A DNA stretch of 64,000 nt from the NCBI RefSeq assembly GCF_005434945.1, contig NZ_SKCH01000004.1:124001-188000 (forward strand), written 5' to 3'. Positions 33,077 to 60,067 of this stretch are shown here, one piece after another. The position numbers and the translations under genes were made by a program. The stretch is from Prescottella subtropica (GTDB taxonomy: Bacteria > Actinomycetota > Actinomycetes > Mycobacteriales > Mycobacteriaceae). Numbering within the stretch: position 1 is the first letter of the stretch; every line of letters begins with the position of its first letter. The notes under the pieces were generated by a model. It was not told the origin of the DNA, made no database searches, and saw nothing but the letters and a program-made list of their open reading frames with translations.

Positions 33077-33150
33077 CCCCTCGCGTTTCGCGCACTTGTT
33101 GCGGGTTTTCGACCCCGGATCGGCGCGACAAGTGCGCAAAACGCAAGGGG
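33077..33150. repeat. Family C intergenic palindrome, copy 1
   Basis: Arms of 27 nt (33077-33103 and 33124-33150) pair with three mismatches, all of G-T type so still pairable as RNA. The shared core is close to GCGTTTCGCGCACTTGTCGC. It lies between co-directional SDR 3 and the acyl-CoA synthetase gene. Other copies: 49954, 51792 and 60005. Confidence 0.85.
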
Positions 33151-33168
33151 GAGGACTGCACGAGCAGG

Positions 33169-33182
33169 TGGAACAGGTTCCA
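33169..33182. promoter_or_regulatory. IclR-type palindrome upstream of the acyl-CoA synthetase
   Basis: TGGAAC-AG-GTTCCA is a perfect 14-bp palindrome of the shape bound by IclR-family proteins. Its half-site TGGAAC recurs in the kshA/SDR divergent region. It is 113 bp before the synthetase start. Confidence 0.55.
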
Positions 33183-33294
33183 GTTTTGCGGGAATGGGGT
33201 TATCGTGACGGTGACCCGGACCACATACCGGCCGACTGTGGTGCGGCGGGCGCACTGCGAGCCGTCGCGGCACGAGTACGCAGAAGGAACGCAC

Positions 33295-34872
33295 ATGACC
33301 GACGAGCTCGCCGACGTCCTCCACCGCCCCCGTTACCTGGCGGACCTGCTGATCACCGCCCTCGACCGCAACGCTGACCGGCCCGCGCTCTACCTCGGTG
33401 ACGTCGTGCTCACCGGCGGTCAGATGCGCGACCAGATCAGCTCGTTCGGTCAGGCACTCGCAGCGCTGGGGATCGGCAAGGGGTCGACGGTGGCGATGCT
33501 GTCGAAGAATCGGCCCGAGGTGCTCATCAGTGTCGGCGCGCAGATGGTGCTCGGCTGCCGCAACACCGCGCTCGCCCCGATGGGGTCGGTCGACGACCAC
33601 GGCTACATCCTCGGTGACGCTGAGATCGAGACCCTCATCTTCGACCCGACGGCGTTCGAGGGGCGCGCCGCCGAACTGCAGGCCGCCGTCCCGACCCTGA
33701 AGAACCTGTTCTCGCTGGGCCCGTCGGAGGTGGGCGTCGACATCCTCGCGCTCGCAACGACGTTCGCGCCGCAGAAGCTGGTGGCCGCGGACGTCGACGG
33801 CAGTGATCCGTCGAGCATGGTGTACACCGGCGGCACCACCGGCAAGCCGAAGGGCGTCGTCAACACCTTCGCGTCCGGGGTGACGCTGCCGCAGATCCAG
33901 ATGGCCGAATGGCAGTTCCCCGACGAGATGCGCTTCCTCGCGTGCACGCCGCTCTCGCACGCCGGTATGGCGTTCTTCGTGCCGACGCTGCTGCGCGGCG
34001 GTTCGCTCGTGGTGCTGCCGGCGTTCGAGCCGGGCGCCGTGCTCGAGGCGATCGAGAAGTACCGCATCACTGCAACAATGCTGGTGCCCACCATGATCTA
34101 CATGCTGCTCGACCACCCGGACCTGAAGACCCGCGACGTCTCGAGCCTGCAGACCCTGTTCTACGGCGCCGCCGCGATGTCGCCGACGCGGCTGCAGGAG
34201 GGCATCGCGAAGTTCGGGCAGATCTTCTTCCAGTACTTCGGGCAGAGCGAGTGCGGCATGACGATCACCGTCATGCGCAAGGAAGAGCACGACCCCGAGA
34301 ATCCCGAACGGCTCGCGTCGTGCGGGCGTCCCGTCCCGTGGCTCGACGTGCGCCTGCTCGACGACGATCTCAGCGAGGTGGCCCAGGGGGAGCTCGGCGA
34401 GATCTGCGTCCGCGGCCCGCTCGTGATGAAGGAGTACTGGAACAAGCCCGCCGAGACCGCGGACGCGTTGCGCGGTGGTTGGCTGCACACCGGTGACATC
34501 GCCCGCGCCGATGCCGACGGCTTCCTCTACATCGTCGACCGCAAGAAGGACATGATCGTCACCGGCGGCTTCAACGTGTTCCCCCGGGAGATCGAGGACG
34601 TCATCTCCGCGCACCCCGCCGTCGCATCCGTCGCGGTCGTCGGTGTGCCCGACGAGAAGTGGGGCGAGGCCGTCAAGGCGTGCGTCGTGCTGCGTGACGG
34701 GCAGGCCGTCGACGCCGCCGACCTCGTCGAACGGGTCCGTGCCGCAAAGGGTTCGGTGCACGCGCCGAAGTCGCTGGACTTCGTCGACTCGCTGCCGCTC
34801 ACCCCCATCGGCAAGCTGGACAAGAAGGCCCTGCGCGCCCAGTTCTGGGCGGGTGCCGCGCGCTCGGTATAG
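33295..34872 (+). CDS. Acyl-CoA synthetase (AMP-forming), FadD-type
   Basis: A 525-residue ANL-superfamily ligase. The P-loop YTGGTTGKPKG lies near residue 180, the YFGQSE motif in the middle, GWLHTGDIA with the hinge in the last third, and the catalytic lysine in LTPIGKLDKKALR near the C-terminus. It activates a carboxylic acid to acyl-AMP and then acyl-CoA. By context the acid may be a steroid side chain or ring remnant, as for FadD3-type enzymes; a general fatty acid is the alternative. The ATG at 33295 follows AGAAGGAA. The frame stays open far upstream, but that part overlaps SDR 3 and is not coding. Confidence 0.85.
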   Translation: MTDELADVLHRPRYLADLLITALDRNADRPALYLGDVVLTGGQMRDQISSFGQALAALGIGKGSTVAMLSKNRPEVLISVGAQMVLGCRNTALAPMGSVDDHGYILGDAEIETLIFDPTAFEGRAAELQAAVPTLKNLFSLGPSEVGVDILALATTFAPQKLVAADVDGSDPSSMVYTGGTTGKPKGVVNTFASGVTLPQIQMAEWQFPDEMRFLACTPLSHAGMAFFVPTLLRGGSLVVLPAFEPGAVLEAIEKYRITATMLVPTMIYMLLDHPDLKTRDVSSLQTLFYGAAAMSPTRLQEGIAKFGQIFFQYFGQSECGMTITVMRKEEHDPENPERLASCGRPVPWLDVRLLDDDLSEVAQGELGEICVRGPLVMKEYWNKPAETADALRGGWLHTGDIARADADGFLYIVDRKKDMIVTGGFNVFPREIEDVISAHPAVASVAVVGVPDEKWGEAVKACVVLRDGQAVDAADLVERVRAAKGSVHAPKSLDFVDSLPLTPIGKLDKKALRAQFWAGAARSV

Positions 34873-34883
34873 ACGCACACGAC

Positions 34884-34919
34884 AACGCCCGGCCGACGAG
34901 GATTCGTCGGCCGGGCGTT
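34884..34919. terminator. Bidirectional terminator
   Basis: AACGCCCGGCCGACGA (34884-34899) pairs perfectly with 34904-34919 over a 4-nt loop; it ends in TTT on the plus strand and has an A-rich flank on the other side. It lies between the convergent synthetase and secreted-protein genes. Confidence 0.85.
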
Positions 34920-34933
34920 TCCGGTTTCGAAGG

Positions 34934-35662
34934 TCAGCTGCCCATCGCGCCGCCGATGATCTTCCCGAAGTCGATGCCGTTGATGACGTCGGTGATCGAG
35001 CCGGTCGGGTTGGTCAGCGAACCGAACATCGACGTGCTGGCGGTGTTCATCGAGCCGAGGCCGCTGGAATCGAGGCTGCCGGTGACGGTTTCGACGGGGT
35101 TCTTGTCGCGCACCGTGACGCAGGCACCCTCCGTCGGCCACTCCTGGCTGTTCCAGTCGCCGGGCTTGGCCTGCACGCCGCTGACGAGCTGGGTACCGGG
35201 CTTCGCGTCCTCGGACACCGTGTAGGTCATCTCGAGGGCAGCGTACTTGCCGCCGGCCATAGCCCAGCCGTTGTTGGTGCGCTCCCAGTACAGGTTCTTG
35301 GCGGCGTCGTTGGTGAGGTGCGTTTCGCCCCACTTCTGGCCACCGGCAGCCCACGAGACGTTCAGTCGGGAGTCTTTCAGGGTCAGGGCCGGATCATGGA
35401 ACTGGCCGATCTCCTTGAGCATCCAGGCGCCGCTCTCACGGCTCACCTTGGTCGTGTAGGTGATCGTGCCGCCCGGCGCGACCTCGGCCTTGTCGGCGGT
35501 CTGCTCGAGGATGATGCCGTCGGCCTTGAAGTTCCGGGTCGGCTGGCAGGTGGATTCGGCGGCGGCGGCGGTTCCGGCACCGACCGCGACGGTCAGGCCG
35601 GTGGCGAGCATGGCGGCACCGGCGCCTGCGGCGGCAACGCGTCGAAGTGTCGTGTGGTTCAC
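34934..35662 (-). CDS. Secreted protein of unknown function
   Basis: The 242-residue protein begins at a GTG behind GGAG. A signal peptide of about 35 residues ends in GTAAAAE. The mature part has a beta-rich domain of about 120 residues (VAPGGTITYTTKVSRESGAWML; LEMTYTVSEDAKPGTQLVSG) that resembles bacterial surface or adhesin-type immunoglobulin-like folds, with a single Cys pair. A Ser/Gly-rich tail follows (NTASTSMFGSLTNPTGS). No enzymatic motif is visible. The function is unknown. Confidence 0.7.
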   Translation of the reverse strand: MNHTTLRRVAAAGAGAAMLATGLTVAVGAGTAAAAESTCQPTRNFKADGIILEQTADKAEVAPGGTITYTTKVSRESGAWMLKEIGQFHDPALTLKDSRLNVSWAAGGQKWGETHLTNDAAKNLYWERTNNGWAMAGGKYAALEMTYTVSEDAKPGTQLVSGVQAKPGDWNSQEWPTEGACVTVRDKNPVETVTGSLDSSGLGSMNTASTSMFGSLTNPTGSITDVINGIDFGKIIGGAMGS

Positions 35663-35765
35663 GGAAGAGCTCCATTCAGTCGAAAGGCGTCGGCTGCGGT
35701 AGCCGGTCGGACGCACACGACACCGCATCTCCCCGTGCCGTGTCCCCGAAACACGTCCACGCAGG

Positions 35766-35787
35766 ACTATATGGACGTCCGTCTAGT
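35766..35787. promoter_or_regulatory. TetR-type palindrome upstream of the secreted-protein gene
   Basis: ACTATATGGAC followed directly by GTCCGTCTAGT pairs at 9 of 11 positions about the centre. Operators with a GGACGTCC centre are typical of TetR regulators. No TetR gene adjoins; the site is 104 bp before the secreted-protein start. Confidence 0.4.
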
Positions 35788-35834
35788 TCTGCAGCGGATT
35801 CGCGCGATTCGCCCGCATCGGGTCGTGGGAACTG

Positions 35835-36593
35835 CTAATGGATCGGATCGGACACGATCGCCTCCACCGGCGTGCCGCCCGCCACCAACCGCTCCCGGGT
35901 GGCGGCCACCATGCCCGGCGACCCGCACACCAGCACCTGATGGTCGGTGAACGGACCGTGGTCGGCAACGACGTCCGCGAGGGTTCCCTCCAGCAGGTCG
36001 TCCTCGTGGAAGCTCACCGGACCGACCTGCTCGACGATCCGGTCGTACCACTCGTCGGGGGCGCCCGGATCGGTCACGGACTCGACGACGGGCACCGTCG
36101 TGAGCCACGGCAACTGCTGCGTCAGCAGCCACAGCATGTCCGACGCGTACAGGTCGCGGCCGGTCCGCCCGCCGACGAACAGGTACACCGGCGGCGGACT
36201 GTCCACCAGTGTCAGATCGAGGATCAGCGACCGCATCGGTGCCAAACCCGTTCCGCCCGCGACCATCACGATCGCCGGACCGTCCACGTCGACGCTCATC
36301 TCACCGCGCGGCGCCGACATCGTCCACACATCACCGGGTGCCGTCTCGGACACGATCGCCCCGCTCACCCACCCGCCCGGAACACTCCGCACATGGAACT
36401 CGAGCTTCCCGTCCCGGGACGGCGGCAACGACGGAGACAACCGGCGCGGCAACCGCGGAAACTGGGGAACGGTCACGTCGACGTACTGACCGGACCGGAA
36501 CGGCACCGGATCACCGATCAACCGCACCACCGCCACATCCTCACGAAGACGATGATGTTCGACGACGGTCGCGGTCCAAGACTCCTGCTGCAT
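35835..36593 (-). CDS. Stand-alone ferredoxin-NADP reductase-like flavoprotein
   Basis: A 252-residue FAD/NAD(P) reductase. The FAD-binding RLSPSLP segment, the NAD(P) motif GGTGLAPMRSL and the C-terminal VLVCGSPGMV are present. There is no globin or 2Fe-2S domain. It is clearly related to the reductase half of the flavohemoglobin gene at 37093, sharing FHVRSVPGGWVS, FVGG and GTPVEAI. It may serve as reductase for a separate oxygenase or globin. The ATG at 36593 is the first in the conserved frame. It is transcribed after the membrane-protein gene and flavohemoglobin in one direction. Confidence 0.78.
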   Translation of the reverse strand: MQQESWTATVVEHHRLREDVAVVRLIGDPVPFRSGQYVDVTVPQFPRLPRRLSPSLPPSRDGKLEFHVRSVPGGWVSGAIVSETAPGDVWTMSAPRGEMSVDVDGPAIVMVAGGTGLAPMRSLILDLTLVDSPPPVYLFVGGRTGRDLYASDMLWLLTQQLPWLTTVPVVESVTDPGAPDEWYDRIVEQVGPVSFHEDDLLEGTLADVVADHGPFTDHQVLVCGSPGMVAATRERLVAGGTPVEAIVSDPIH

Positions 36594-36639
36594 GGTCTCT
36601 ATTGTCCGGGTCCACACGCGATGCGCGCGCCGGCGGGTG

Positions 36640-37074
36640 TCAGGCCGTCGCGAGACGCCGATTGTGCAGGGCCAGGGCCGTGTACAGCACGGCGATCAGC
36701 AGGCCGCAGACGGCGAGCGGGGTCCAGCCGGGCAGGGCGTCGACGCTGCGGGCGGTGACGACCGGCCCGTAGAAGGCCATCGGGGAACCGGTGCCCGTCA
36801 ACAGATCCCACTGCCGTGGCCGAACCGGTGGGGAGCCCCGCCACGGCACCCGATGGCCCCGGTTCTCCCGCAGGACCCGCGCGGTTCCGGCCGCAGCCGA
36901 TCCGGCCCCGACGACCGTCACCACCACCCCGGCGACCGCCGTGGTCGTCGACGGAGGAGTAAGAGTCAACAGCATCGCCACGATCACGATCGCCGTGATC
37001 GAGAGAGCGGCGAGCCAGGGGCGGTTGCGGGGCTCGGGAGAACTGGAAGCCGATCGCATGCCGTCCACGGACAT
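36640..37074 (-). CDS. Small membrane protein, unknown function
   Basis: A 144-residue protein with about three hydrophobic segments: near residues 21-40 (LAALSITAIVIVAMLLTL), 45-65, and 117-137 (LAVCGLLIAVLYTALALH). The loop between the second and third is basic and proline-rich. No family is recognised. The ATG follows AAAGGA and lies 18 bp past the flavohemoglobin stop, so they probably share a transcript with the reductase gene downstream. Confidence 0.65.
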   Translation of the reverse strand: MSVDGMRSASSSPEPRNRPWLAALSITAIVIVAMLLTLTPPSTTTAVAGVVVTVVGAGSAAAGTARVLRENRGHRVPWRGSPPVRPRQWDLLTGTGSPMAFYGPVVTARSVDALPGWTPLAVCGLLIAVLYTALALHNRRLATA

Positions 37075-37092
37075 CCTTTCAGGGAAAGCTGC

Positions 37093-38256
37093 TCAGCGCA
37101 GCGGATCGTAGGCGATCGCCTCGACCGGCGTCCCGGCGCGTTGCAGGGCGTAGGCGGTGGTCTTGACCATGGCCGGGGAGCCGCAGATCTGGATCTGTCG
37201 GTCGGACCAGGTGCCGAAGCTGCTGACGACGGAGCCGATGGGGCCGCGTAGCCGTTGGTGCAGTCCGTGTGGGGGTTCGAGGACGGGATACGGATGCCAC
37301 CACGGGTTTTCGTCTTCCTCGGTGACGGGGACGATCGTGAGCCACGGGTTGCTCAGCGACAGGTGCCACAGGGTTTCGATGTCGTACAGGTCGCACGGGT
37401 AGGCGCCGCCGACGAACAGGTGGACGCGCGGGTTGATGCCGCGGTGCGCCATGTCCATCACCTGGGCGCGCAGCGGTGCCAGGCCGGTGCCGCCGGCGAT
37501 CATGAGGACGTCCTTGCCGCAGTCCGGGTCGACGTGCAGGCCGCCGAGGGGGGAGCTGATCTGCCAGCGGTCCCCGACGGCGGTCTCGTTCACCATGGCC
37601 GGGCTCACCCAGCCGCCGGAGACCCGTCGGACATGGAATTCGAGCTGGCCGAACGGGTTCGACGGGATCGCCGGCGACAGGTATCGCCACATCTGTGGTC
37701 GCTGCGGGATCTGCACGCTCACGTACTGGCCGGGCGCGTAGGGGACGGGGGAGTCGCATTCGAGGCGGACGACGGCGAGGTCGCGCAGCACCCGTTCGTG
37801 GCTGACGACCGTCGCCTCCCACAGTGCCGGACAGTCGTCGGCGTCGGCGGCGTCGGACATCGTGGTGGTGACGAGCGCGATCAGTTCCCGCCACGCGGTA
37901 TCGGCGGCCGGGGTCCACGGCGCGCTCGAGTCGACCTCGCGGATCGCGTCGAGCAGGGCATTACCGGCGGCCGCATAGTGCTCGCGGTCGACGCCGTACT
38001 TGCGGTGGTCGCGGCCCAACTGGGCGAGGAACGGCAGCATCCGCGCGGTGTCGTCGGCCCCGTTCACGATGTACTCGAGCGCGGAGACGATCTTGGTGCG
38101 CTGGCTGTCCATGCCCGCCGGGAACAGTGACCGCGTCAGCGGGAGCCGTCCGAAGAACTGGGTGTAGAACGTGCGGGCAAACCGGTCACGTCGCTCCGGG
38201 GAGGCCGTCACGGCAGCAAAATGTGTGCGGATGAGCCCGACTGCAGCCGTGTCCAC
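37093..38256 (-). CDS. Flavohemoglobin (globin joined to FAD/NAD(P) reductase)
   Basis: The 387-residue protein has an N-terminal globin (about 1-140) with the proximal-histidine segment LGRDHRKYGVDREHYAAAGN, then a FAD domain (RYLSPAIPSNP) and an NAD(P) domain (IAGGTGLAPLRAQV; ICGSPAMV). Length and its position divergent from clpB match M. tuberculosis Rv0385 (about 390 residues), a type II flavohemoglobin that differs from classical NO dioxygenases. Electron donor and substrate are not settled by sequence. The GTG at 38256 lies 6 bp after GGGAGG. The frame is open beyond, but the extension overlaps clpB and is rejected. Confidence 0.86.
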   Translation of the reverse strand: MDTAAVGLIRTHFAAVTASPERRDRFARTFYTQFFGRLPLTRSLFPAGMDSQRTKIVSALEYIVNGADDTARMLPFLAQLGRDHRKYGVDREHYAAAGNALLDAIREVDSSAPWTPAADTAWRELIALVTTTMSDAADADDCPALWEATVVSHERVLRDLAVVRLECDSPVPYAPGQYVSVQIPQRPQMWRYLSPAIPSNPFGQLEFHVRRVSGGWVSPAMVNETAVGDRWQISSPLGGLHVDPDCGKDVLMIAGGTGLAPLRAQVMDMAHRGINPRVHLFVGGAYPCDLYDIETLWHLSLSNPWLTIVPVTEEDENPWWHPYPVLEPPHGLHQRLRGPIGSVVSSFGTWSDRQIQICGSPAMVKTTAYALQRAGTPVEAIAYDPLR

Positions 38257-38394
38257 GGTGTCCTCCCTCGCCTGTTCCCGGCGCCCCGAACCGCACGATC
38301 GCGTATCGGTGCCGTAACAAGTGTGCACCGTCGGGGGCGGTGCGTGAACGGTGCCTGCGCGGACCGTGGGACAGATCTCGGCAAACTCGTTAAA

Positions 38395-38415
38395 GTTGAG
38401 CGGAACAGACTCAAC
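38395..38415. promoter_or_regulatory. HAIR operator upstream of clpB
   Basis: GTTGAGC-N7-ACTCAAC fits the HAIR form with two mismatches in the left half and one in the right. A further half-site, GTTGAGC, lies at 38424-38430. This places clpB under HspR. Confidence 0.82.
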
Positions 38416-38503
38416 CTTTCGTGCGTTGAGCAGAACGACAGGCCGGGTGGAACGCTTCACCCAGGCACAATGATCTTGTTCGTCGTTTCGAGGAAGGTGA
38501 CCA

Positions 38504-41056
<2,553 letters not shown>

Positions 41057-41063
41057 AACGCGC

Positions 41064-41105: not shown

Positions 41106-41110
41106 ACACG

Positions 41111-46950: not shown

Positions 46951-47001
46951 AGCTGAAGGGACCCGTTGTGCGCTCCTGGCGAACAAAGGGTCCCTTCAGC
47001 T
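46951..47001. repeat. Family B intergenic palindrome, copy 3
   Basis: 22-nt arms (46951-46972 and 46980-47001) pair with two mismatches. The core AGCTGAAGGGACCC is inverted in its central base relative to copies 1 and 2. It lies between the convergent pyrE and secreted-protein genes. Confidence 0.82.
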
Positions 47002-49953: not shown

Positions 49954-50016
49954 CGCGTTTCGCGCACTTGTCGCGCCTCGGAAGGCCGGAAATCCACGAC
50001 AAGTGCGCGAAACGCG
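49954..50016. repeat. Family C intergenic palindrome, copy 2
   Basis: CGCGTTTCGCGCACTTGTCG (49954-49973) pairs perfectly with 49997-50016; the loop of 23 nt can form an inner CCGGAAATCC-type fold. It lies between convergent galK and the exporter gene. Confidence 0.88.
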
Positions 50017-50035
50017 GGGGAGCGGGACTCGAATG

Positions 50036-51286
50036 TCAGTCGGCGTCGCCGACGGTGACGGCGGTGGCCTCCTCGATGCTGTGCGGGGCCGGATCGTGGT
50101 CGTCGACGTGGGTGAGGACTCTGCGCCCGGACATGAGCACGGCGATGCCGGCGACGGTGCAGATCGCGCCCACCCAGAACGGCATGTGAACGTTGTGCTC
50201 GCCGAGTTTGCCGGCGACGTACGGGGCGGCGGCACCGCCGACGAAGCGGACGAAGCTGTAGGCGGCCGACGCGGTGGAACGTTCGACGGGCGCGGAGATC
50301 ATCACGGTCTCGGTGATGAGGGTGTTGTTGACGCCGAGGAACAGGCCGGCGAGGACGACACACATGATCAGGACCGGCTTGGATTCGGTGAACAGCGCCA
50401 TCGCGGCGAGGTCGAGTGCGAACAGGCTCAGGGCGGCGACCATCACCGGCAGGGTGCCGAAGCGGCGCTGCAGTCGCGGCGCCAGGAACACCGAGGCCAC
50501 GGCGAGCGCCAGGCCCCAGCCGAAGAAGATGAAACCGATTGCGTACGTGCCCATGTCGAGGGGGAACGGGGTGTACGCGAGCAGGGTGAAGAAGCCGTAG
50601 TTGTACAGCAGTGCGGTGATCGCGACGGTGAGCAGGCCACGGTGGCGCAGTGCCTGGAACGGGGCGGCCAGCGATGTCTTGTGCTGCGGCTTCGGGGCCG
50701 TCGGCAGCATGACGACGATGAGGATGAACGCGATCGCCATGAGGGTGGCGACACCGAAGAACGGTGCGCGCCAACTGATGTTGCCGAGGACGCCGCCGAC
50801 GAGGGGGCCGACGGCGATACCGATACCGAGCGCCGCCTCGTACAGGATGATCGCGCGAGCCACGCCGCCGCTCGCGGCACCGACGATCGCGGCCAGCGCG
50901 GTCGCGATGAACAGGGCGTTGCCCAGACCCCAGCCGGCCCGGAATCCGACGATCTGGTCGATCGTGCTCGACGCGCCGGCGAGGGTCGCGAAGACGACGA
51001 TGATCGCCAGACCCCACAGCAGGGTCTTCTTGGCGCCGATGCGGCTCGAGATCATGCCGGTGAACAGCATTGCGACACCCGTGACCAGCATGTAGCTGGT
51101 GAACAGCAGCGACACCTGCGACGGGGTGGCGTCGAGCTGTTCGGCGATCGGCTTGAGGATCGGGTCCACCAGGCCGATGCCCATGAAAGCGATCACGGAC
51201 GCGAAGGCGACGGCCCACACGGATTTCGGCTGCTGCAGGATGCTGGGTTTGGGGCTCGCGGCGGTGGGCGCGGTCGTGGTGCTCAC
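50036..51286 (-). CDS. Major facilitator superfamily transporter, drug-exporter type
   Basis: A 416-residue protein with about twelve hydrophobic segments. The loop between helices 2 and 3 reads GMISSRIGAKKTLLWG, the MFS motif A in a relaxed form, and motif C-like GPLVGGVLG follows in helix 5. This points to a proton-linked exporter, though the substrate is unknown. The GTG start overlaps the marR-type stop (GTGA), forming a regulator-exporter operon as commonly seen for drug or phenolic efflux. Confidence 0.85.
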   Translation of the reverse strand: MSTTTAPTAASPKPSILQQPKSVWAVAFASVIAFMGIGLVDPILKPIAEQLDATPSQVSLLFTSYMLVTGVAMLFTGMISSRIGAKKTLLWGLAIIVVFATLAGASSTIDQIVGFRAGWGLGNALFIATALAAIVGAASGGVARAIILYEAALGIGIAVGPLVGGVLGNISWRAPFFGVATLMAIAFILIVVMLPTAPKPQHKTSLAAPFQALRHRGLLTVAITALLYNYGFFTLLAYTPFPLDMGTYAIGFIFFGWGLALAVASVFLAPRLQRRFGTLPVMVAALSLFALDLAAMALFTESKPVLIMCVVLAGLFLGVNNTLITETVMISAPVERSTASAAYSFVRFVGGAAAPYVAGKLGEHNVHMPFWVGAICTVAGIAVLMSGRRVLTHVDDHDPAPHSIEEATAVTVGDAD

Positions 51287-51771
51287 GTATCCCTCCTCGG
51301 GTGTGTCGTGCGGTCCACGGCGGCGGACCGGATGATGGTGCGGAGTTCTCCGAGTCCCTCGGTGAGCAGTGCGATCTGTGCGGGTTCGAGGTGCGCGAAG
51401 TACGGAGTCAGATCGTCGGCGATGGCGTGCCGGCCTTCGACGAGCCAGCGTCGGCCCGCGTCGGAGATGTCGACGAGAACCGCACGACAGTCGTCGGGGT
51501 CGGGGTGCCGGGACACGAGGCCTTCCTCGCCGAGCCGCTTGAGCAGCGCGGTCGCGGACGGCTGCGACGAACTGTCGAGCCGCGCGAACGTGCTGATCCG
51601 CAGCGGTCCCTGCTCCTCGAGCAGGGACAGTGCCCGCATCCAGGGTCGGGGCCGGTCGTCGTGGGCGACGGCGGATGCCAGCCGGGTGAAGCGATGGGCG
51701 TTGCTCACCAGCTGCACTAACAGGTCTCGGAACGCGGGGTCGGCGGAACTCACGGATACGAATAATTGCAT
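51283..51771 (-). CDS. MarR-family regulator
   Basis: A 162-residue MarR protein. The winged helix spans about residues 48-115 (GPLRISTFARLDSSSQPSAT, then LVSRHPDPDDCRAVLVDISD, with the DxRxxxV wing signature). It is the first gene of the operon with the MFS exporter and probably represses it. A 25-bp imperfect palindrome overlaps its start codon (51766-51790). Confidence 0.88.
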   Translation of the reverse strand: MQLFVSVSSADPAFRDLLVQLVSNAHRFTRLASAVAHDDRPRPWMRALSLLEEQGPLRISTFARLDSSSQPSATALLKRLGEEGLVSRHPDPDDCRAVLVDISDAGRRWLVEGRHAIADDLTPYFAHLEPAQIALLTEGLGELRTIIRSAAVDRTTHPRRDT

Positions 51772-51790
51772 ACGCTAACTATCTATGTAA
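51766..51790. promoter_or_regulatory. Candidate MarR operator over the marR start
   Basis: TTGCATA-N11-TATGTAA pairs at 6 of 7 positions and covers the ATG of the MarR gene, as many autorepressors do. Confidence 0.45.
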
Positions 51791-51791
51791 A

Positions 51792-51862
51792 CCCCTGCGT
51801 TTCGCGCACCTATCGCGACCGGCGGGCCGGAAAACCCGCGTCAAGTGCGCGAAACGCGGGGG
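51792..51862. repeat. Family C intergenic palindrome, copy 3 (divergent gap)
   Basis: Arms of 26 nt (51792-51817 and 51837-51862) pair except for five positions near the loop and one near the base. GCGTTTCGCGCAC and its complement are exact. It is the most decayed copy and lies between divergent genes, where no terminator is expected. Confidence 0.8.
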
Positions 51863-53123: not shown

Positions 53124-53148
53124 GGCCTTCTTCTCGTTCGCCCCCAGC

Positions 53149-53769
53149 CTAGCCGCCCGGATCGGACCCGTATCCGGGCTGCGCCACGATCGCCGGGGCC
53201 AGCCATCGTCGTAGGTAGCGACGCAGGTCGTCGTCGGATCGTGGGGGTGTGCCGGGGGAGACGAAGAACGACTGCATGGTCCGCAGCAGGTGCTCGACGA
53301 GTTCGAGCAGTGCCGCGTCGTCGTAGCCGTGGCGCTCCCAGTCGACGTCGAAGCGTCGGATCATCGTCGTGCCGAACATGCGGGCCTCGTCCGACGTGAT
53401 CCCGGGGGTGTTCGAGTGCGCGCCCGACAGCATGATGCCCAGGTGTGGGGTGCGCCGGACGTCGTCGAGTGTGAAGACGACGCCCTCGACGACCGCCTCG
53501 GTCGGATCGTGCAGTCCGTGCACGCGGGCGGTCAACCGGTCGAGGAATGCGTCGACCGACGCGATCGCGGTCGCCCGCATGAGTGCGTCGGCGCTGGGGA
53601 AGTAGCGGTACACCGTCTGCCGGATGACGCCGAGTGCGTCGGCGACCTCGGCGATGCCGACCGCCGACCCGGTGCGGGAGATCGCCTCGACGGCCACCTC
53701 GACGATGCGCCGCGCGGCCTCCGCGTCATCGACCGGGGGTCGGCCGCCCCATCCTCGTCTGCGTGCCAC
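53149..53769 (-). CDS. TetR-family regulator
   Basis: A 206-residue TetR protein. The helix-turn-helix (about residues 17-63) reads ISRTGSAVGIAEVADALGVI then RQTVYRYFPSADAL. The rest is the helical ligand domain. A GTG at 53769 is the best start; the ribosome site is weak, and the frame continues upstream into the divergent promoter. It probably controls the facing hydrolase and membrane-protein genes and itself through the palindrome at 53833-53862. Confidence 0.85.
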   Translation of the reverse strand: MARRRGWGGRPPVDDAEAARRIVEVAVEAISRTGSAVGIAEVADALGVIRQTVYRYFPSADALMRATAIASVDAFLDRLTARVHGLHDPTEAVVEGVVFTLDDVRRTPHLGIMLSGAHSNTPGITSDEARMFGTTMIRRFDVDWERHGYDDAALLELVEHLLRTMQSFFVSPGTPPRSDDDLRRYLRRWLAPAIVAQPGYGSDPGG

Positions 53770-53832
53770 GGGCGGACGGTACCAGCATCGAGGCCCGTCC
53801 AGGCGCAGGCCACGGCGATTTCGACGAAAGTC

Positions 53833-53862
53833 ATCATACAAACCATCCGTCATTCGTATGAT
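53833..53862. promoter_or_regulatory. Candidate TetR operator in the divergent gap
   Basis: ATCATAC at 53833-53839 is repeated in inverse as GTATGAT at 53856-53862, with 16 bp between. It lies between the TetR gene and the metal-dependent hydrolase gene. Confidence 0.5.
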
Positions 53863-53902
53863 CGCGACGGCAGCCGAACGAACGACGAACGAGGTAGCGC
53901 GC

Positions 53903-54832
53903 ATGACGGATCTCAAACCCCGGAAGATGGACTTCGGGTTCGACGACGGGGACGTCCCGTTCCTGTGGAATCCCGAGAACCCGGCGTGGTCGAGCATGTC
54001 GAACGCGGTCTCGTTCCTCGCCGTCGGCTTCGAGAAGATGATCGTGAAGCTGATCCTGCAGGCCAAGCCGCTCATGACCGATCCCACGGTCGCCGAGGAG
54101 GCGGTTGCATTCATGCGGCAGGAGGGTCACCACTCGACCGCGCACCGGCAGCACGTGGCCGCCCTGATCCGGCGCTACCCGGGACTGCAGAACACCCTGG
54201 ACGCGGTGATCGGCGAGTTCGACCTCCTCACCGAGGCGACGTCGATCAACTATCGGCTCGCGTACACCGCCGACCTCGAGGCCACGTTCACGCCGGTGTT
54301 CAAGCTCATGCTCGACAACGAGGAGACGCTGTTCCGGCGCGGTGACGACCGGGTCGCGTCCCTGTTCCTGTGGCACTTCGTCGAGGAGGTGGAGCACCGC
54401 AGCTCCGCGCTGATCCTCTACAAGGCGGTCGTCGGCAGCGAGCTGTACCGGATGCGGATGGCGCCGTCGGTGTTCGCGCACGTGCTCAAGGTGATCCGGA
54501 TCGCGTGCGCCGGCTTCAACCAGCACGTGCCGCTCAGCGAACGCAAGGTCGACTCGCTGTCGATGTTCGCCCGGCACCGCGCCAAGCAGAAGGTGCTCAC
54601 GTTCTTCGCGCCGTACCTGAGCAAGGGGCCGATGCCGCGTGCGTTCGACGGGTTGCCGATCGGTGAACAGCTCACCGCGCTCAAGGGTGCCGCCCTCAGT
54701 CAGACCCCCGGGCACGATCCGGCGCACGAGAACCTGCCGGTCCTCGCCGATGCATGGTTCACCCGCTACGACGACGGCTACGACTGCACCCGCTGGTACA
54801 CGTCCGAGCCGGCCGCGTCGGGGGCGAACTGA
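53903..54832 (+). CDS. Predicted metal-dependent hydrolase (PF10118 type)
   Basis: A 309-residue helical protein. Two histidine/glutamate motifs, EEAVAFMRQEGHHSTAHRQH and WHFVEEVEHRSSAL, are arranged as in the PF10118 predicted metal-dependent hydrolases, also found in ferritin-like di-iron proteins; either an oxidase or hydrolase activity is possible. The ATG at 53903 is preceded by GAGG. The membrane-protein gene starts within its stop codon, so the two form an operon, probably TetR-controlled. Confidence 0.75.
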   Translation: MTDLKPRKMDFGFDDGDVPFLWNPENPAWSSMSNAVSFLAVGFEKMIVKLILQAKPLMTDPTVAEEAVAFMRQEGHHSTAHRQHVAALIRRYPGLQNTLDAVIGEFDLLTEATSINYRLAYTADLEATFTPVFKLMLDNEETLFRRGDDRVASLFLWHFVEEVEHRSSALILYKAVVGSELYRMRMAPSVFAHVLKVIRIACAGFNQHVPLSERKVDSLSMFARHRAKQKVLTFFAPYLSKGPMPRAFDGLPIGEQLTALKGAALSQTPGHDPAHENLPVLADAWFTRYDDGYDCTRWYTSEPAASGAN

Positions 54833-55989
54833 TGGCGGCCGGATGCTCGCCCACGTTCGCGGATCTCGCGGAGCGCCTGGGCTTCTCGTGCGAGGAGGCC
54901 GGTGGGCTCGTCGAGTTCCGTAATCCGGCGGCCCTGGAGAACTGGACGCTGCCGGTGCTCGAGGCGATGATCGTGCTCGGGGCGGTCCTCGCCCTGGTGT
55001 ACGCGATCCTGCGGCTGCGCCGGCACGGTGATCCCACCAACCTGGTGCTGTGGTTCGGTGCCACCGCGTTCCTGTTCGTCATCGAACCGCCCATCTACTT
55101 CCCGGCCACGTTCGGCACCGAGGAATATCTCGGAACGATGTTCGCGCACAACGTGTTCACGGTGGACTTCCTGTGGGGCCGGCTCCCGCTGTACATCGTC
55201 GCGATCTACCCGTTGATGGCGACGATGGCGTTCGAGCTCGTCCGCATGCTCGGCGTGTTCCGCCGCTACGGGGTGTTCCTCGGCGCGGTGTGCGTGGGCT
55301 TCGTCCACCACGCGTTCTACGAGATCTTCGACCAGCTCGGCCCGCAACTGCGCTGGTGGGAGTGGACGCTCGACAACAAGGTCAATCTGCCGTTCTTCGA
55401 TGCGGTTCCGCTGCCGAGCGTCGTGGTGTTCGCGGCGCTGTGGCCGATGTCGTTGGCACTGTGCGTGCAGTTCTTCGTCGGCCGGCACGTGGATGAAGGA
55501 CGCAGTTTCGGGGGCCTCGAACTGGTGTGGCGCACCGTCGTGATCGGTCTGGTCGCGTCCGTCGGCGTCTTCGTGTTGCCGTTGCCGGCGACCGTGGGCG
55601 GGCTGGGCAGCGACACCGTCCGCGGCGTCCTGTACGCGGCCGAACTCGTCGCCGTCACCGTCGTCGCGATCCCGCTGCTGGTCGCCCAGTGGTCGCGTCT
55701 GCGACGCGGCACTGCCACCACCCCGGCGTATTCGAACGACTTCGTCCGCGTCTACGCGACCGTGTACATCGTGGTGATGGGTGTGCTGTGGGCGAGCGCG
55801 CTGCCCGACTTCTTCGCCGCCGAGAACGGCGTCACCGACAGCGGCGATCCGATCGGCAACCTCTGGTACACGATCGCGTGCTTCGTCGTCGCGATCGCGG
55901 CGGTGGCGGCGACGTGCACTGTTCCCCGCGGCTCCACGCCGACCGCCGACCCGGCCCCGGACCAGCGGGCGGTGACGCAGGCGGGTTGA
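54832..55989 (+). CDS. Multi-pass membrane protein, unknown function
   Basis: A 385-residue protein with about nine hydrophobic segments. A short polar N-terminus with Cys residues precedes the first segment (MIVLGAVLALVYAIL). Conserved-looking polar residues lie in VHHAFYEIFDQLGPQLRWWE. The ATG overlaps the previous stop (TGATG). The family is not recognised; coupling to the di-metal protein suggests that it processes or exports its product or substrate, which is inference. Confidence 0.7.
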   Translation: MAAGCSPTFADLAERLGFSCEEAGGLVEFRNPAALENWTLPVLEAMIVLGAVLALVYAILRLRRHGDPTNLVLWFGATAFLFVIEPPIYFPATFGTEEYLGTMFAHNVFTVDFLWGRLPLYIVAIYPLMATMAFELVRMLGVFRRYGVFLGAVCVGFVHHAFYEIFDQLGPQLRWWEWTLDNKVNLPFFDAVPLPSVVVFAALWPMSLALCVQFFVGRHVDEGRSFGGLELVWRTVVIGLVASVGVFVLPLPATVGGLGSDTVRGVLYAAELVAVTVVAIPLLVAQWSRLRRGTATTPAYSNDFVRVYATVYIVVMGVLWASALPDFFAAENGVTDSGDPIGNLWYTIACFVVAIAAVAATCTVPRGSTPTADPAPDQRAVTQAG

Positions 55990-56057
55990 ACGCGCGGCGG
56001 CCGCGACAACCGTGCGGACTACAGTTCGAGGGACTTCCCCGATCCGAACGAGATGTT

Positions 56058-56801
56058 GTGAGCAGCTACCCGAACACCGGCGAACCGAACACCGACGAAC
56101 CGCGCATCGACGAACCGAAGATGCACGCCGCGGCCGGCGACGACGCCGACACACCCGGCCCCACCGAGTGGGGTGAGCACCCGCACGGCGTCGGGTCCTG
56201 GGAACTCGAACACGACGCGCCGATCCCCGACGACCCGCACTACGATCCGCAGTTGCTGGCCGACGGGGATCGGCGCAACGTCGTCGACGCCTACCGCTAC
56301 TGGACGCGGGAGGCGATCGTCGCCGACATCGACAGCCGACGCCATCCGCTGCACGTCGCGATCGAGAACTTCGGGCACGACTCGAACATCGGCACCGTCG
56401 TGCGGACCGCGAACGCGTTCGCGGCGGCCGCCGTGCACATCGTCGGCCGGCGCCGCTGGAACCGGCGCGGCGCGATGGTCACCGACCGCTACCAGCATCT
56501 GGTGCACCACCCGGACCTGGACGGGGTCGCCGCGTTCGCACGGGAGCACGGGCTGACGGTCGTCGCCGTCGACAACACCCCCGGATCGGTGCCGATCGAG
56601 ACCGTCGACCTGCCCCGTGACTGCCTGCTGCTGTTCGGGCAGGAGGGGCCCGGGGTCACCGACCAGGGACATGCGGCGGCCGCGATGACGGTGTCGATCG
56701 CCCAGTTCGGGTCCACCCGCAGCATCAACGCCGGTGTCGCGGCGGGCGTCGCGATGCACGCCTGGATCCGGCAGCACGCCGATCTCGGCCGCGCCTGGTA
56801 G
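56058..56801 (+). CDS. TrmH/SpoU-family RNA 2'-O-methyltransferase
   Basis: A 247-residue SpoU-family enzyme. The three family motifs are present: NIGTVVRTANAFAAAAVHIV, LLLFGQEGPGVT and STRSINAGVAAGVAMHAWI, which form the AdoMet trefoil knot. It methylates a ribose in tRNA or rRNA; the exact site is unknown. The N-terminus has an acidic stretch with short EPNTDEP-like repeats, absent from the core family. The GTG at 56058 is preferred, but an ATG at 56121 would remove these repeats. It resembles M. tuberculosis Rv0380c in context. Confidence 0.85.
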   Translation: MSSYPNTGEPNTDEPRIDEPKMHAAAGDDADTPGPTEWGEHPHGVGSWELEHDAPIPDDPHYDPQLLADGDRRNVVDAYRYWTREAIVADIDSRRHPLHVAIENFGHDSNIGTVVRTANAFAAAAVHIVGRRRWNRRGAMVTDRYQHLVHHPDLDGVAAFAREHGLTVVAVDNTPGSVPIETVDLPRDCLLLFGQEGPGVTDQGHAAAAMTVSIAQFGSTRSINAGVAAGVAMHAWIRQHADLGRAW

Positions 56802-56835
56802 CGGAAGCGCCGTCCCCCAGGCAAGATCGATAGTC

Positions 56836-57957
56836 ATGCAGCGCGAATGGTCTGCTCGGGCGGACGCGGCGGAGACCGCGGTGACCACCCGGCACATTCG
56901 CCGTGTCTGGGGGATGCCCGGTACGGCGTTGGCGGTTGTGGCGTGGCCCGCGGTGACCCGCGAGTGAATGTTCGTCAACTGGCACTACTGGTGGCAGGCG
57001 CACCTCATCAGTTGCGCCGTCGACGCCGCGGAACGCCAGCCCAGCGCCCGCCGCCGCCGTCGGCTGCAACGACTCATCCGCGGGCACCGCGTCCGGAACG
57101 TCACCGGCTGGACCAACAGCTACTACGACGACATGGCGTGGCTCGGTCTGGCGCTCGAGCGGGCGCAGCGGATGCAGCTGATCGACAACCGCAAACCCCT
57201 CGCCGGCCTCGAACGGCAACTGTTCGACGCGTGGTCCCCGGACGCCGGCGGCGGGATTCCGTGGCGTCGCCACTCCGATTTCTTCAACACCCCCGCCAAC
57301 GGGCCCGCCGCTCTGATGCTCGCCCGCACCGGTCGGTTGTGGCGGGCGCAGGCGATGGCGGACTGGATCGACGAGACACTGCGCGACCCGGACACTGGTC
57401 TGATCTTCGACGGTATCCGACGTGACGGCACCCTCGAACGCAACATCTACACGTACTGCCAGGGTTCGGTGCTGAGCCTCGAGACGGAACTGGCGGTCCG
57501 GATCGGCGATCCGCGGCACCGGCTGCGGGTCCACCGGCTCGTCGACGCGGTCGACGAGCGGCTCGCGAACGGCGGCGTGATCCGTGGCGGGGGCGGCGGT
57601 GACGGCGGACTGTTCAACGGACTGCTCGCCCGGTATCTCACGCTCGTCGCGCTGATGCTGCCCGGTGACGCGCCCGCCGACGTGCGCGCCCGGCAGATCG
57701 CCGCGCAACTCGTCCTCGGTTCGGCGGAGGCGGCGTGGGAGAACCGGCTGCAGGTCGAGGAACTGCCGCTGTTCGGGAAGGACTGGAGCCTGCCCGCACA
57801 ACTCCCGGGACTCGGCGGCGACATCGCCACGTATTCGGGGGGATCGGTGAACCCGTCCGACATCGCCGAACGGGACCTGTCGGTGCAGCTCGGCGGCTGG
57901 ATGCTGATGGAATCCGCGTATCTGGTGTCGGCGGCGGGCTATCCGAAACGCCGGTGA
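56836..57957 (+). pseudogene. GH76-like glycoside hydrolase (Rv0365c-like) with in-frame TGA at 56965
   Basis: The frame from the ATG at 56836 encodes 43 residues (MQREWSARADAAETAV...), then TGA at 56965-56967, then continues in the same frame for 329 residues starting MFVNWHYWWQAHLI. Joined, the 373 residues match in length the M. tuberculosis homologue (about 376), whose N-terminus reads through this point as I recall it. The downstream part has the (alpha/alpha)6-barrel features of GH76: TNSYYDDMAWLGLAL with its Asp pair, and YCQGSVL. A CGA-to-TGA change or a sequencing error would explain it. Alternatively translation restarts at the ATG at 56968, giving a protein lacking its first helix. 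Family GH76 acts on mannan-type glycans. Confidence 0.75.
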
Positions 57958-57979
57958 CCGGGAGGCCCGGTCACCGGCG
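57949..57979. terminator. Terminator shared by the GH76-like and dedA genes
   Basis: CGCCGGTGACCGGG (57949-57962) pairs perfectly over 14 bp with 57966-57979. It contains the GH76-like stop codon and faces the converging dedA stop at 58000. Confidence 0.8.
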
Positions 57980-57999
57980 TCGGTGGGTGTGTCGGACGG

Positions 58000-58743
58000 T
58001 CAGACCGTCGGATCGTTCTGCGGGGCGACCTGCTCGGTGGTTGCCGGTGCGGTGGCGGCGCCGGACTTGCGGCCGGCGAGGACACGCTTGCCGACCTCGA
58101 CGATGATCGGGACGACCGACACCAGGACGATGAGGATGAAGATCAGGTCGACGTTGTCGGCGATGAACTGGATCTGGCCGAGGAAGTAGCCGAGCAGTGT
58201 GACACCGGCACCCCACACGATCGCGCCGATGACGTTGTAGGTGAGGAACACCGGGTACTTCATCTTCGACGCACCCGCGACGAGCGGCGCGAACGTGCGG
58301 ACGATCGGCACGAACCGCGCCAGGAAGATCGTGATCGGACCGTGCTTCTCGAAGAACGCGTGCGCCTCGTCGATGTAGCTCTTCCGGAAGAACTTCGCGT
58401 CGTCGGACTTGAAGAGGGCCGCGCCGCCCTTCGCGCCGATCCAGTATCCGACCTGGTCGCCGAGGAACGCGGCGATCGGAATGGTCACCATCAGCACCCA
58501 CAGCGGCGCGAACGGTTCCACGTCGGCGGACTTCGATGCCGCGATCAGGCCGGCTGTGAACAGTAGCGAGTCGCCCGGCAGCAGCGGGAACAGCAGACCC
58601 GATTCGATGAACACCACCAGCAGCAGGCCGATCAGCATCCACGTGCCGAACGAATTGAGCAGATTCACCGGATCGAGGAATCCCGGCAGCAATGCCAGAT
58701 TGGTGGTCACGGTCTCCGAAGCTGCCAGCACAGTCACACGCAC
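58000..58743 (-). CDS. DedA-family membrane protein
   Basis: A 247-residue SNARE-associated/DedA protein with about five hydrophobic segments. FIESGLLFPLLPGDSLLFTA and the later ARFVPIVRTFAPLVAG segment carry the acidic and arginine residues conserved in DedA proteins. These act in membrane homeostasis and lipid-carrier recycling. Start is uncertain: the GTG at 58743 has no ribosome site but follows a TACGCT -10-like motif by about 7 bp, suggesting a leaderless mRNA; GTG 58737 and the distal 58842 are alternatives. It resembles Rv0364, also next to fba. Confidence 0.83.
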   Translation of the reverse strand: MRVTVLAASETVTTNLALLPGFLDPVNLLNSFGTWMLIGLLLVVFIESGLLFPLLPGDSLLFTAGLIAASKSADVEPFAPLWVLMVTIPIAAFLGDQVGYWIGAKGGAALFKSDDAKFFRKSYIDEAHAFFEKHGPITIFLARFVPIVRTFAPLVAGASKMKYPVFLTYNVIGAIVWGAGVTLLGYFLGQIQFIADNVDLIFILIVLVSVVPIIVEVGKRVLAGRKSGAATAPATTEQVAPQNDPTV

Positions 58744-58928
58744 CAGCGTACCGGCGGGAACTGAGAACCGGCTGAGCCGATACAACCGGTACACATCGAC
58801 CGTCGTCGCCGGCACCCGCGCGGGCACCGGGGAGGCATTCACGCGCGCGGGTTGCCATACTGCATAGACACACCGGTGCGCCGTCAGTCGGTCGCGCCCC
58901 CCGATTCGTCACATGGAGGACAGCCGCC

Positions 58929-59963
58929 GTGCCTATCGCAACTCCCGAGGTCTACGCCGAGATGATCGCCCGGGCCAAGGACAACTCCTTCGCGTTCCCG
59001 GCCATCAACTGCACCTCGTCCGAGACGATCAACGCGGCCATCAAGGGCTTCGCGGACGCCGGCAGTGACGGCATCATCCAGTTCTCGACCGGTGGCGCCG
59101 AGTTCGGTTCGGGCCTGGGTGTCAAGGACATGGTCACCGGTTCCGTCGCACTCGCCGAGTTCGCGCACGTGATCGCCGCCAAGTACGACGTCACGATCGC
59201 ACTGCACACCGACCACTGCCCCAAGGACAAGCTGGACGGCTTCGTCCGCCCGCTGCTCGCGATCTCGCAGGAGCGCGTGAACGCCGGACGCAACCCGCTG
59301 TTCCAGTCGCACATGTGGGACGGCTCGGCCATCCACATCGACGAGAACCTCGAGATCGCGCAGGACCTGCTGAAGCTGAGCAAGGCCGCGAACATCATCC
59401 TCGAGGTCGAGATCGGTGTCGTCGGCGGCGAAGAGGACGGCGTCGAGGCCGAGATCAACGACAAGCTGTACACGTCGGTCGAGGACTTCGAGAAGACCGT
59501 CGACGCCCTCGGTGTCGGCGAGAACGGCAAGTACCTGCTGGCCGCGACGTTCGGCAACGTGCACGGCGTGTACAAGCCGGGCAACGTCGTCCTCAAGCCG
59601 GAGGTGCTGGCGCAGGGCCAGGCCGCGGCCGCCGCGAAGCTGGGCCTGGCAGCCGGCTCGCAGCCGTTCGACTTCGTCTTCCACGGCGGCTCGGGCTCGC
59701 TGAAGTCGGAGATCGAGGAGTCGCTGAAGAACGGCGTCGTGAAGATGAACGTCGACACCGACACCCAGTACGCGTTCTCGCGTCCCATCGCCGGTCACTT
59801 CTTCACCAACTACGACGGCGTCCTCAAGGTCGACGGCGAGGTCGGCAACAAGAAGGTCTACGACCCGCGCAGCTACCTGAAGAAGGCCGAGGCGGCCATG
59901 ACCGCCCGCGTCATCGAGGCCTGCAACGACCTGCACTCCGCGGGCCGCTCGGTCTCCGCCTGA
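58929..59963 (+). CDS. fba: Class II fructose-bisphosphate aldolase
   Basis: A 344-residue zinc aldolase. The zinc ligand and catalytic region ALHTDHCPKDKLDGF lies near residue 98, ILEVEIGVVGGEEDGVE in the middle, and VFHGGSGSLKSEI with the phosphate-binding Gly-Ser loop and NVDTDTQYAF near the C-terminus. It cleaves fructose-1,6-bisphosphate in glycolysis and builds it in gluconeogenesis. The GTG start follows GGAGGA. It is divergent from dedA, and a family C palindrome follows the stop. Confidence 0.96.
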   Translation: MPIATPEVYAEMIARAKDNSFAFPAINCTSSETINAAIKGFADAGSDGIIQFSTGGAEFGSGLGVKDMVTGSVALAEFAHVIAAKYDVTIALHTDHCPKDKLDGFVRPLLAISQERVNAGRNPLFQSHMWDGSAIHIDENLEIAQDLLKLSKAANIILEVEIGVVGGEEDGVEAEINDKLYTSVEDFEKTVDALGVGENGKYLLAATFGNVHGVYKPGNVVLKPEVLAQGQAAAAAKLGLAAGSQPFDFVFHGGSGSLKSEIEESLKNGVVKMNVDTDTQYAFSRPIAGHFFTNYDGVLKVDGEVGNKKVYDPRSYLKKAEAAMTARVIEACNDLHSAGRSVSA

Positions 59964-60004
59964 CGGTAGGCGCCGCTCACCGGATGCGGTGAGCTCTGTT
60001 TCCC

Positions 60005-60067
60005 CGCGTTTCGCGCACTTGTCGCCGGTTTCCCCATTCGGGGACCGCGACAAGTGCGCGAAACGCG
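60005..60067. repeat. Family C intergenic palindrome, copy 4
   Basis: A perfect 21-bp stem (60005-60025 with 60047-60067). The loop holds a second small hairpin, CCCC-N4-GGGG (60032-60043). It lies between the convergent fba and membrane-protein genes. Confidence 0.88.

Follow-up and report, generated by a model that had tools for sequence, protein, structure and literature searches.

The four long palindromes in a 64,000-nt stretch of the Prescottella subtropica genome (GCF_005434945.1, NZ_SKCH01000004.1, forward strand, 124,001-188,000; hereafter the window) belong to a family of oriented repeats in which 20-bp arms follow one another at a period of 41 or 42 bp, in inverted and direct pairs alike. 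We regard it as about an even call that these arrays are DNA-level docking sites for a putative sequence-specific protein with a chromosome-scale role. The arm word is GCGTTTYGCGCACTTRTCGC, almost always preceded by C, and its arrays in the window are as follows:

Array 1, 33083-33144: plus-strand arm at 33083-33102, 22-nt spacer, minus-strand arm at 33125-33144; tandem gap, where a short-chain dehydrogenase gene has its stop codon 15 nt before the array and an AMP-binding enzyme gene follows 150 nt after it.
Array 2, 49955-50015: plus-strand arm at 49955-49974, 21-nt spacer, minus-strand arm at 49996-50015; convergent gap, flanked by a gene of galactokinase type and one for an MFS transporter.
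Array 3, 51797-51857: plus-strand arm at 51797-51816, 21-nt spacer, minus-strand arm at 51838-51857; divergent gap, flanked by genes of the MarR and YhhN families.
Array 4, 60006-60066: plus-strand arm at 60006-60025, 21-nt spacer, minus-strand arm at 60047-60066, arms perfect; convergent gap, flanked by the gene for a class-II fructose-bisphosphate aldolase and by a 177-aa gene that has no Pfam match.

All four palindromes were present, and their intergenic placement was confirmed with predicted genes from a simple, purpose-made gene finder. An earlier sequence-only reading had counted three G-T mismatches in copy 1; on the plus strand, its 20-nt arms contain two non-Watson-Crick positions, one C.A and one T.G. 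Array 2 has one such position (C.A), array 3 has three (C.A, A.C and T.T) and array 4 has none. The same reading held that the loops differ fully, but spacer length is almost constant (22, 21, 21 and 21 nt) and the spacers of the family have a common A/T pattern, with some of them similar beyond chance. Likewise, the term palindrome fits the four window copies but not the family as a whole, which also includes three-arm, five-arm and direct-repeat arrays with equal spacing.

The suggestion of a genome-wide element was borne out, and a search of the genome and its relatives with the arm did not end in only four copies without conservation. The P. subtropica genome (4,404,788 bp) contains 48 arrays with 104 arms, and the 20-mer with up to three mismatches had 99 matches genome-wide versus none for a reversed-pattern control; a chance origin of the repeat family is excluded. 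Arms were present in 12 of 14 Prescottella genomes, at up to about a hundred copies per genome; with up to one mismatch allowed, genomes G012 and G013 had none and G003 a single arm. A sample of 287 genomes from elsewhere in the family had no arms. The two-arm core pattern had no match among 396 further genomes from the order, a sample that lists no other Prescottella member and is therefore silent on the genus, for which the figure of 12 comes from a separate search. A contig scan returned at least 103 stretches, and the 80 listed were all Prescottella, Rhodococcus hoagii or Rhodococcus sp. OK519. A phage or plasmid origin was rejected, as one 81-bp array query had no match among 72,556 plasmid or 50,697 phage records and the exact arm was absent from the viral contigs searched. 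No description of the repeat was found in the literature searched, including the available portion of the R. equi genome paper (PMC2947987).

Arm-start intervals in the P. subtropica genome were 41 or 42 bp in 53 of 56 cases, the other three being 40, 44 and 50 bp; these arrays were located by the arm alone, and only this result is free of gap selection because loci from the multi-genome contig scan were preselected for a 19-24-nt gap. Among 185 distinct pooled arrays (arms with up to five mismatches, grouped if less than 75 bp apart; thresholds of our own choosing), the interval was 41 bp in 105 and 42 bp in 55 of the 162 inverted '+-' pairs, and 41 bp in 39 of the 50 direct pairs. The repeats are thus not all in direct orientation, as those of a CRISPR array would be. 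Arrays contain two to five arms, and direct-only arrays are kept at one gap in four genomes. Because inverted and direct pairs share the period, the layout is not accounted for by hairpin formation. A scan of A/T power between 8 and 14 bp peaked at 10.5 bp, where the left arm, spacer and right arm had phases of -132, -127 and -126 degrees, respectively.

Under the docking-site explanation, each 20-bp arm would be one protein site read as double-stranded DNA, and two to five such sites, 41-42 bp or four helical turns apart, would therefore all face one side of the helix, with the DNA between them predicted to bend in phase with the arms. The putative protein may bind the arrays as a phased oligomer, and its role would be chromosome-scale, such as organising the nucleoid, coordinating division with segregation or insulating transcription at gene ends, rather than regulation of one gene set. 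Among the readings offered earlier, a binding site is the best backed, by the 41/42-bp period in all orientations, the helical A/T phase and the higher conservation of arms than of spacers, although binding itself is what we infer. Arm and spacer identities were 93.5% and 57.4% in orthologous pairs (n = 60, 15 groups), with spacer length retained, and 90.6% and 39.7% in non-orthologous pairs (n = 1021); the orthologous groups were hand-picked, the comparison was restricted to two-arm arrays with a length of 61, 62 or 64 bp, and arm conservation is inflated because the arms were found through arm similarity. Gaps inspected free of the arm-similarity condition had altered or decayed arms in genomes G003, G006, G008 and G010. 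The shared A/T pattern may partly reflect ancestry rather than constraint, given that similar spacers are over-represented: within P. subtropica, 18 of 820 spacer pairs were at least 70% identical, versus 3.8 (range 0-9) after column shuffling, and the best pair reached an identity of 0.90 with unrelated flanks.

We also compared orthologous positions. Stretches of 13 other genomes syntenic with the window contained 31 arrays (called with arms of up to six mismatches), of which 29 occupied the four gaps known from the window and two were extra copies beside one of these gaps. Several orthologous gaps were without an array in some genomes, so none of the arrays is indispensable by itself. Two-flank placement failed for G009, G012 and G013 at most gaps and for G002 at the copy-1 gap, and contig or insertion breaks prevented it in the comparison of the copy-2 gap. 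Spacers were inverted between species at three or more loci (scored over 115 of 189 ortholog pairs with two simple arrays each, in which pairs from one gap are not independent), and the array 4 spacer has the inverted orientation in two other genomes. These inversions, like the similarity between arms of one array, may be side effects of template switching or of recombination that joins inverted arms.

A mobile palindrome or REP-like repeat had also been proposed, and part of that proposal stands. The corresponding scenario, in which a REPIN-like non-autonomous element spread extragenically in the genus ancestor, its transposase was lost or belonged to another family, and the copies slowly decayed in place, is in our view possible but rather doubtful. 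The macro-architecture is alike: as far as the accessible part of PMC3116915 describes them, REPINs and REP sequences of Pseudomonas and E. coli also pair short inverted extragenic words at a class-typical distance around a less conserved spacer, one class having invariant inverted 16-mers with 71 bp between their first residues. The extragenic sites of the 48 arrays, the excess of similar, copied-looking spacers, the spacer inversions, the gaps cleanly lacking an array and the confinement to one genus among the genomes searched point the same way. The transposase fits less well, as PF01797 (Y1/RAYT-type) had no match in the P. subtropica genome and matched 4 of the 14 genus genomes, one of them without elements; 5 of 14 control genomes matched in this search, E. 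coli among them, and a Y1/RAYT link was rejected because PF01797 presence did not correlate with arrays across the 14 genomes. Also against mobility are the recurrence of arrays at the same four gaps, the plasmid, phage and viral searches, the retained length of diverged spacers and the period shared by direct arrays, which, with the conserved positions, distinguishes this family from REPINs. REP words fall into GTAG and CGTC tag classes, according to the portion of PMC3733652 available, and neither tag was seen in the arm word by reading. Unlike REP units, single arms (those of copy 4) fold no better than shuffles (-2.9 and -2.6 kcal/mol; z -0.2 and 0.3). The BIME clusters of E. coli are bound by gyrase, IHF and Pol I. 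Like these clusters, which PMC3733652 mentions by name, the arrays are clustered, oriented extragenic units that may permit protein docking, but the unit sequence and the fixed helical period differ.

Most arrays lie about 20 nt downstream of a stop codon, with a median distance from the upstream stop of 22 nt in tandem gaps, where 69 of 81 are closer to the 3' end, and of 17 nt in convergent gaps. This position would suit a 3'-end RNA hairpin that terminates transcription in both directions or stabilises the mRNA, an explanation that we nevertheless consider improbable. RNA folds of the four copies are stable (-48.5 to -54.7 kcal/mol; z -6.1 to -9.3 versus shuffles), arms within one inverted array resemble each other beyond chance, and arm positions 5, 6, 13, 16 and 19 are correlated between arms of one array; position 15 (A/G) has no significant arm-to-arm correlation, and any covariation of the spacer halves is weak and at the edges, with no pairing beyond column chance except for the outermost pairs (z 2.0-2.4) and one inner pair (z -2.5). 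At the copy-4 gap, matched changes preserve the pairing in some genomes: both arms of G003 and of G006 lack one T, probably through one shared event, and the G008 stem is changed yet perfect with a 3-nt loop, whereas at the copy-3 gap the arms of G006 and G003 have decayed without matched changes. G.U exceeded A.C in tandem gaps (30:20 overall, P = 0.20; 12:4 at position 15, P = 0.08), but the ratio was reversed at position 6 (4:7). Pairing was equal across gap types (433/460 cells in divergent, 982/1060 in tandem and 685/720 in convergent gaps), the loop is fixed at 21-22 nt though a 20-bp stem should accept other lengths, direct-repeat arrays cannot form the stem, and a known RNA family was rejected since the 64-kb window had zero matches at Rfam gathering thresholds. 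Intrinsic terminators also have a long GC-rich stem, often shortly after stop codons; the arrays differ from them in lacking a T run (the flanks are C/G-rich), in their near-constant loop and in occurring as direct arrays. Some results lean toward pairing, but a clear sign of selection on it was not found. An ordinary operator, through which one transcription factor would control the adjacent genes, is very improbable. The conserved, sequence-specific word and the place of copy 3 in a divergent gap beside a MarR gene, with a conserved upstream element, agree with it, but arrays sit mostly at 3' ends and few are in divergent gaps (4 of 43 classified P. subtropica arrays, versus 42 of 139 gaps of at least 70 bp in the same stretches, array gaps included). 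No functional theme was apparent in 28 neighbouring proteins scanned (8 in the window and 20 of 34 candidate neighbours), and a regulon of related genes was rejected for this mixture.

The docking-site explanation extends to the distribution of arrays along the chromosome. In five near-complete genomes of shared ancestry, 1 of 110 arrays lay in the terminus region (beyond 0.8 of the origin-terminus half-circle, a cut-off set after looking), a count from positions transcribed manually from array listings and exclusive of 18 unpaired 3-mismatch matches, all at 0.76 or closer to the origin. The widest array-free gap was centred at 0.99, 0.98, 0.99, 0.99 and 0.92. This pattern is confounded by poor synteny near the terminus, as a 14-kb terminus sample of G008 had patchy synteny in other genomes, and a second repeat family used as a control was mildly depleted there too (7/69, P = 0.02). 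Noc and SlmA sites are likewise sequence-specific chromosomal sites, sparse or missing near the terminus as the present arrays may be, and the Noc site is a 14-bp palindrome, according to the part of PMC4726725 available to us; in the same source Noc sites are not phased arrays, and further abstracts also describe a scatter round the chromosome. That the arrays are the cis-acting part of an undescribed chromosome-organising or nucleoid-occlusion-like system of the genus, in which a putative protein would oligomerise on four-turn-phased, terminus-excluded sites and mark unsegregated DNA or shape the nucleoid, seems to us unlikely.

The repeat offers a bait of 20 bp, strictly repeated every four turns, which should capture the partner protein, if one exists. 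A genuine terminus exclusion could prompt the question of how division is coupled with chromosome segregation in these bacteria, since Actinobacteria have no recognisable Min or Noc homologues according to a review (PMC3989709, available portion). If the arrays are instead REPINs without the usual transposase, they would represent a new lineage of such repeats. In addition, the spacer inversions provide natural data on the effect of 20-bp inverted repeats on the intervening DNA.

The four long palindromes proposed by the sequence-only reading were all confirmed in the window. Their suggested membership of a genome-wide element also held, as the 20-bp arm word GCGTTTCGCGCACTTGTCGC gave 99 matches at ≤3 mismatches in the Prescottella subtropica genome versus 0 for a reversed-pattern control. 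We refer to one to five arms in plus or minus orientation as an array, and to the DNA between neighbouring arms as a spacer. In the window and 40 stretches around arm matches outside it, our own thresholds yielded 48 arrays with 104 arms (32 '+-', 5 '+--', 3 '++-', one each of '++++-', '++', '--' and '-+-', and 4 single arms). The palindromic features of the window are as follows.

33083-33144, array of GCGTTTCGCGCACTTGTCGC arms, copy 1
49955-50015, array, copy 2
51797-51857, array, copy 3
60006-60066, array, copy 4
18078-18154, 23035-23105 and 46951-47001, second palindrome family AGCTGAAGGGWCCCTTTGTTCG, two inverted units around a short loop
16311-16356, perfect 21-bp inverted repeat, 4-nt loop, with an A/T run

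The second family recurs in the genus (2 to 53 matches per genome in the five genomes searched), and the inverted repeat at 16311-16356 looks like an ordinary terminator-type hairpin. In the draft assembly, six of some 47 arrays sat no more than 300 bp from the end of a contig (C4:133, C31:208, C34:140, C34:261621, C66:150 and C67:149903; expected ~0.4), and from this excess we read that the assembly breaks at array repeats.

Arm spacing was nearly fixed. Of the 56 own-genome intervals between arm starts, 53 measured 41 or 42 bp (the remaining three being 40, 44 and 50), a period common to inverted and direct neighbours. In a pooled set of 185 distinct arrays from the own and other genomes, the interval was 41 in 105 and 42 in 55 of 162 '+-' pairs, and 41 in 39 of 50 direct pairs; the '-+' order was seen once, and thus plus arms nearly always stand ahead of minus arms. 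Spacers were mostly 21-22 nt long, with G usual at position 1, a GC-rich centre and A/T peaks at about positions 3-5 and 15-17, and 96% of plus arms had C directly 5'. When periods of 8 to 14 bp were scanned along 61-bp arrays, the strongest A/T period was 10.5 bp, at which the phases of the left arm, spacer and right arm (-132, -127 and -126 degrees) agreed within 6 degrees; comparable A/T peaks were absent from the outer flanks.

The 48 own arrays occupied 23 tandem, 16 convergent and 4 divergent gaps, with 4 at contig edges and 1 overlapping a predicted gene; the corresponding tandem, convergent and divergent counts for all gaps ≥70 bp in the same stretches, array gaps included, were 73, 24 and 42. 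In the 185-array set, divergent gaps held 27 arrays, and the median distance from stop codon to array was 17 nt in convergent gaps and 22 nt from the upstream stop codon in tandem gaps, where 69 of 81 arrays were closer to the 3' end. Neighbouring genes were of mixed function (28 proteins, including dehydrogenases, transporters, a tRNA synthetase, aminotransferases and an aldolase). Conserved non-array motifs adjoin or sit inside some arrays (ATATATCAC..GTGTGATG and GCTAACTATCTATGTAAACCC; position 2942 of the fetched stretch L049 with its orthologs, and window 51770-51797), and are perhaps candidate operators of the neighbouring genes.

Within Prescottella (the Rhodococcus equi/hoagii clade), 12 of 14 genomes carried arms (1 to 94 matches each at ≤1 mismatch), which were found in 0 of 287 family-sample genomes outside the genus, so that all 12 positives among 301 belong to it. 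The two-arm core was absent from all 396 other genomes of an order sample that includes no other genus member. An exact arm did not occur in viral contigs, and one array used as query had no match among plasmid or phage records. The arm word drifts by species: G008 and G006 arms frequently end in CGG and carry GCGATTT, and G003 retains a single arm at ≤1 mismatch, its arms being altered at the gaps examined. This drift looks as if a putative partner changed or was lost in these three genomes.

The sequence-only reading had called for a search of related genomes and a tabulation at orthologous gaps. Syntenic DNA for two window parts from 13 other genomes held 31 arrays (arms at ≤6 mismatches), of which 29 occupied the four gaps known from the window and the other 2 lay next to the copy-2 gap. 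Arrays were present in 4, 8, 8 and 9 of the 13 genomes at the gaps of copies 1 to 4, respectively, some remaining gaps being unplaceable on both flanks. For example, the copy-1 gap was cleanly without an array in G003, G004, G006, G008 and G010, and arms at the copy-3 gap had decayed in G003 and G006. Of five own arrays checked in the nearest relative, G011, two were absent though found in other genomes, two were present and one was unplaceable. Arrays sometimes border one gene on each side (window 49955-51857; fetched stretches L061:2800-3478, L067:2977-3467 and, from G004, L223 14789-15895), and own array-to-array intervals of ≤2.5 kb numbered 5 versus 1.2 expected. A gene of 150 aa predicted in L061 is missing in G011, where one array alone is left, and the copy-2 gap of G004 carries ~1 kb of additional DNA between two arrays. 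Arrays may contribute to gene gain and loss.

Identity was 93.5% for arms and 57.4% for spacers between orthologous arrays (60 pairs from 15 hand-picked groups), and 90.6% and 39.7% between non-orthologous ones (1021 pairs). Forward spacer identity reached ≥0.62 in 54 of the 115 ortholog pairs in which both arrays were simple. A further criterion, inverted identity ≥0.62 that exceeded the forward value by 0.1 (99th percentile of the null, 0.71), picked out 16 pairs, non-independent and from a few loci, as fitting better with the spacer inverted; several of them scored 0.76-0.90 inverted versus 0.19-0.48 forward. Clear inversions occurred at copy 4 (two genomes versus three), L055 and L050, with flank orientation unchanged, and are read as template switching or recombination between inverted arms. 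In the own genome, inverted arm pairs of one array differed by 1.60 mismatches versus 2.17 for random pairs, and in other genomes by 1.11 versus 1.40; direct pairs were also alike in the own genome (1.54 versus 2.24; 13 pairs), whereas their likeness was not clear elsewhere (2.05 versus 2.20, sd 0.14). Template switching or recombination between inverted arms would also fit this within-array likeness.

With dnaA placed via PF08299 in five near-complete genomes, the widest array-free gap spanned 0.88-1.58 Mb and was centred at 0.99, 0.98, 0.99, 0.99 and 0.92 of the path from origin to antipode. Beyond 0.8 of that path lay 1 of 110 arrays versus 7 of 69 copies of a second intergenic repeat family (Fisher P 0.006, with a cut-off picked post hoc). 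However, several results speak against simple exclusion of arrays from the terminus: the whole distributions of the two families did not differ significantly (KS P 0.53), the control family was itself somewhat depleted there, arrays departed significantly from uniformity in three of five genomes (KS P 0.14, 0.03, 0.0009, 0.03 and 0.11), and a 14-kb G008 terminus sample was just patchily syntenic in other genomes. Gap shortage was rejected as a cause, with 53 gaps ≥70 bp per 120 kb sampled at the G008 terminus versus 41 elsewhere.

Arrays could act as RNA hairpins at 3' ends, as mobile REPIN-like elements, or as docking sites for a putative DNA-binding protein. As RNA, copies 1-4 have predicted folds of -48.5 to -54.7 kcal/mol, and a hairpin is favoured by matched changes at the copy-4 gap, by G.U outnumbering A.C in tandem gaps (30:20, P 0.20) and, within the own genome, by correlation between arms at positions 6, 16 and 19; but position 15 showed no significant correlation between arms, direct arrays occur, loop length is kept, and pairing in divergent gaps equals that at gene ends. 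Spacer pairs are alike beyond a column-shuffled null (18 of 820 versus 3.8), the best-matching of them with unrelated flanks, a pattern suggestive of past copying. A Y1 transposase match was not found in the own genome. Ancient spread followed by retention as putative protein sites would fit all the mobile and docking evidence, and the two readings are thus not mutually exclusive. We favour docking as the present function of the arrays, at about even odds.
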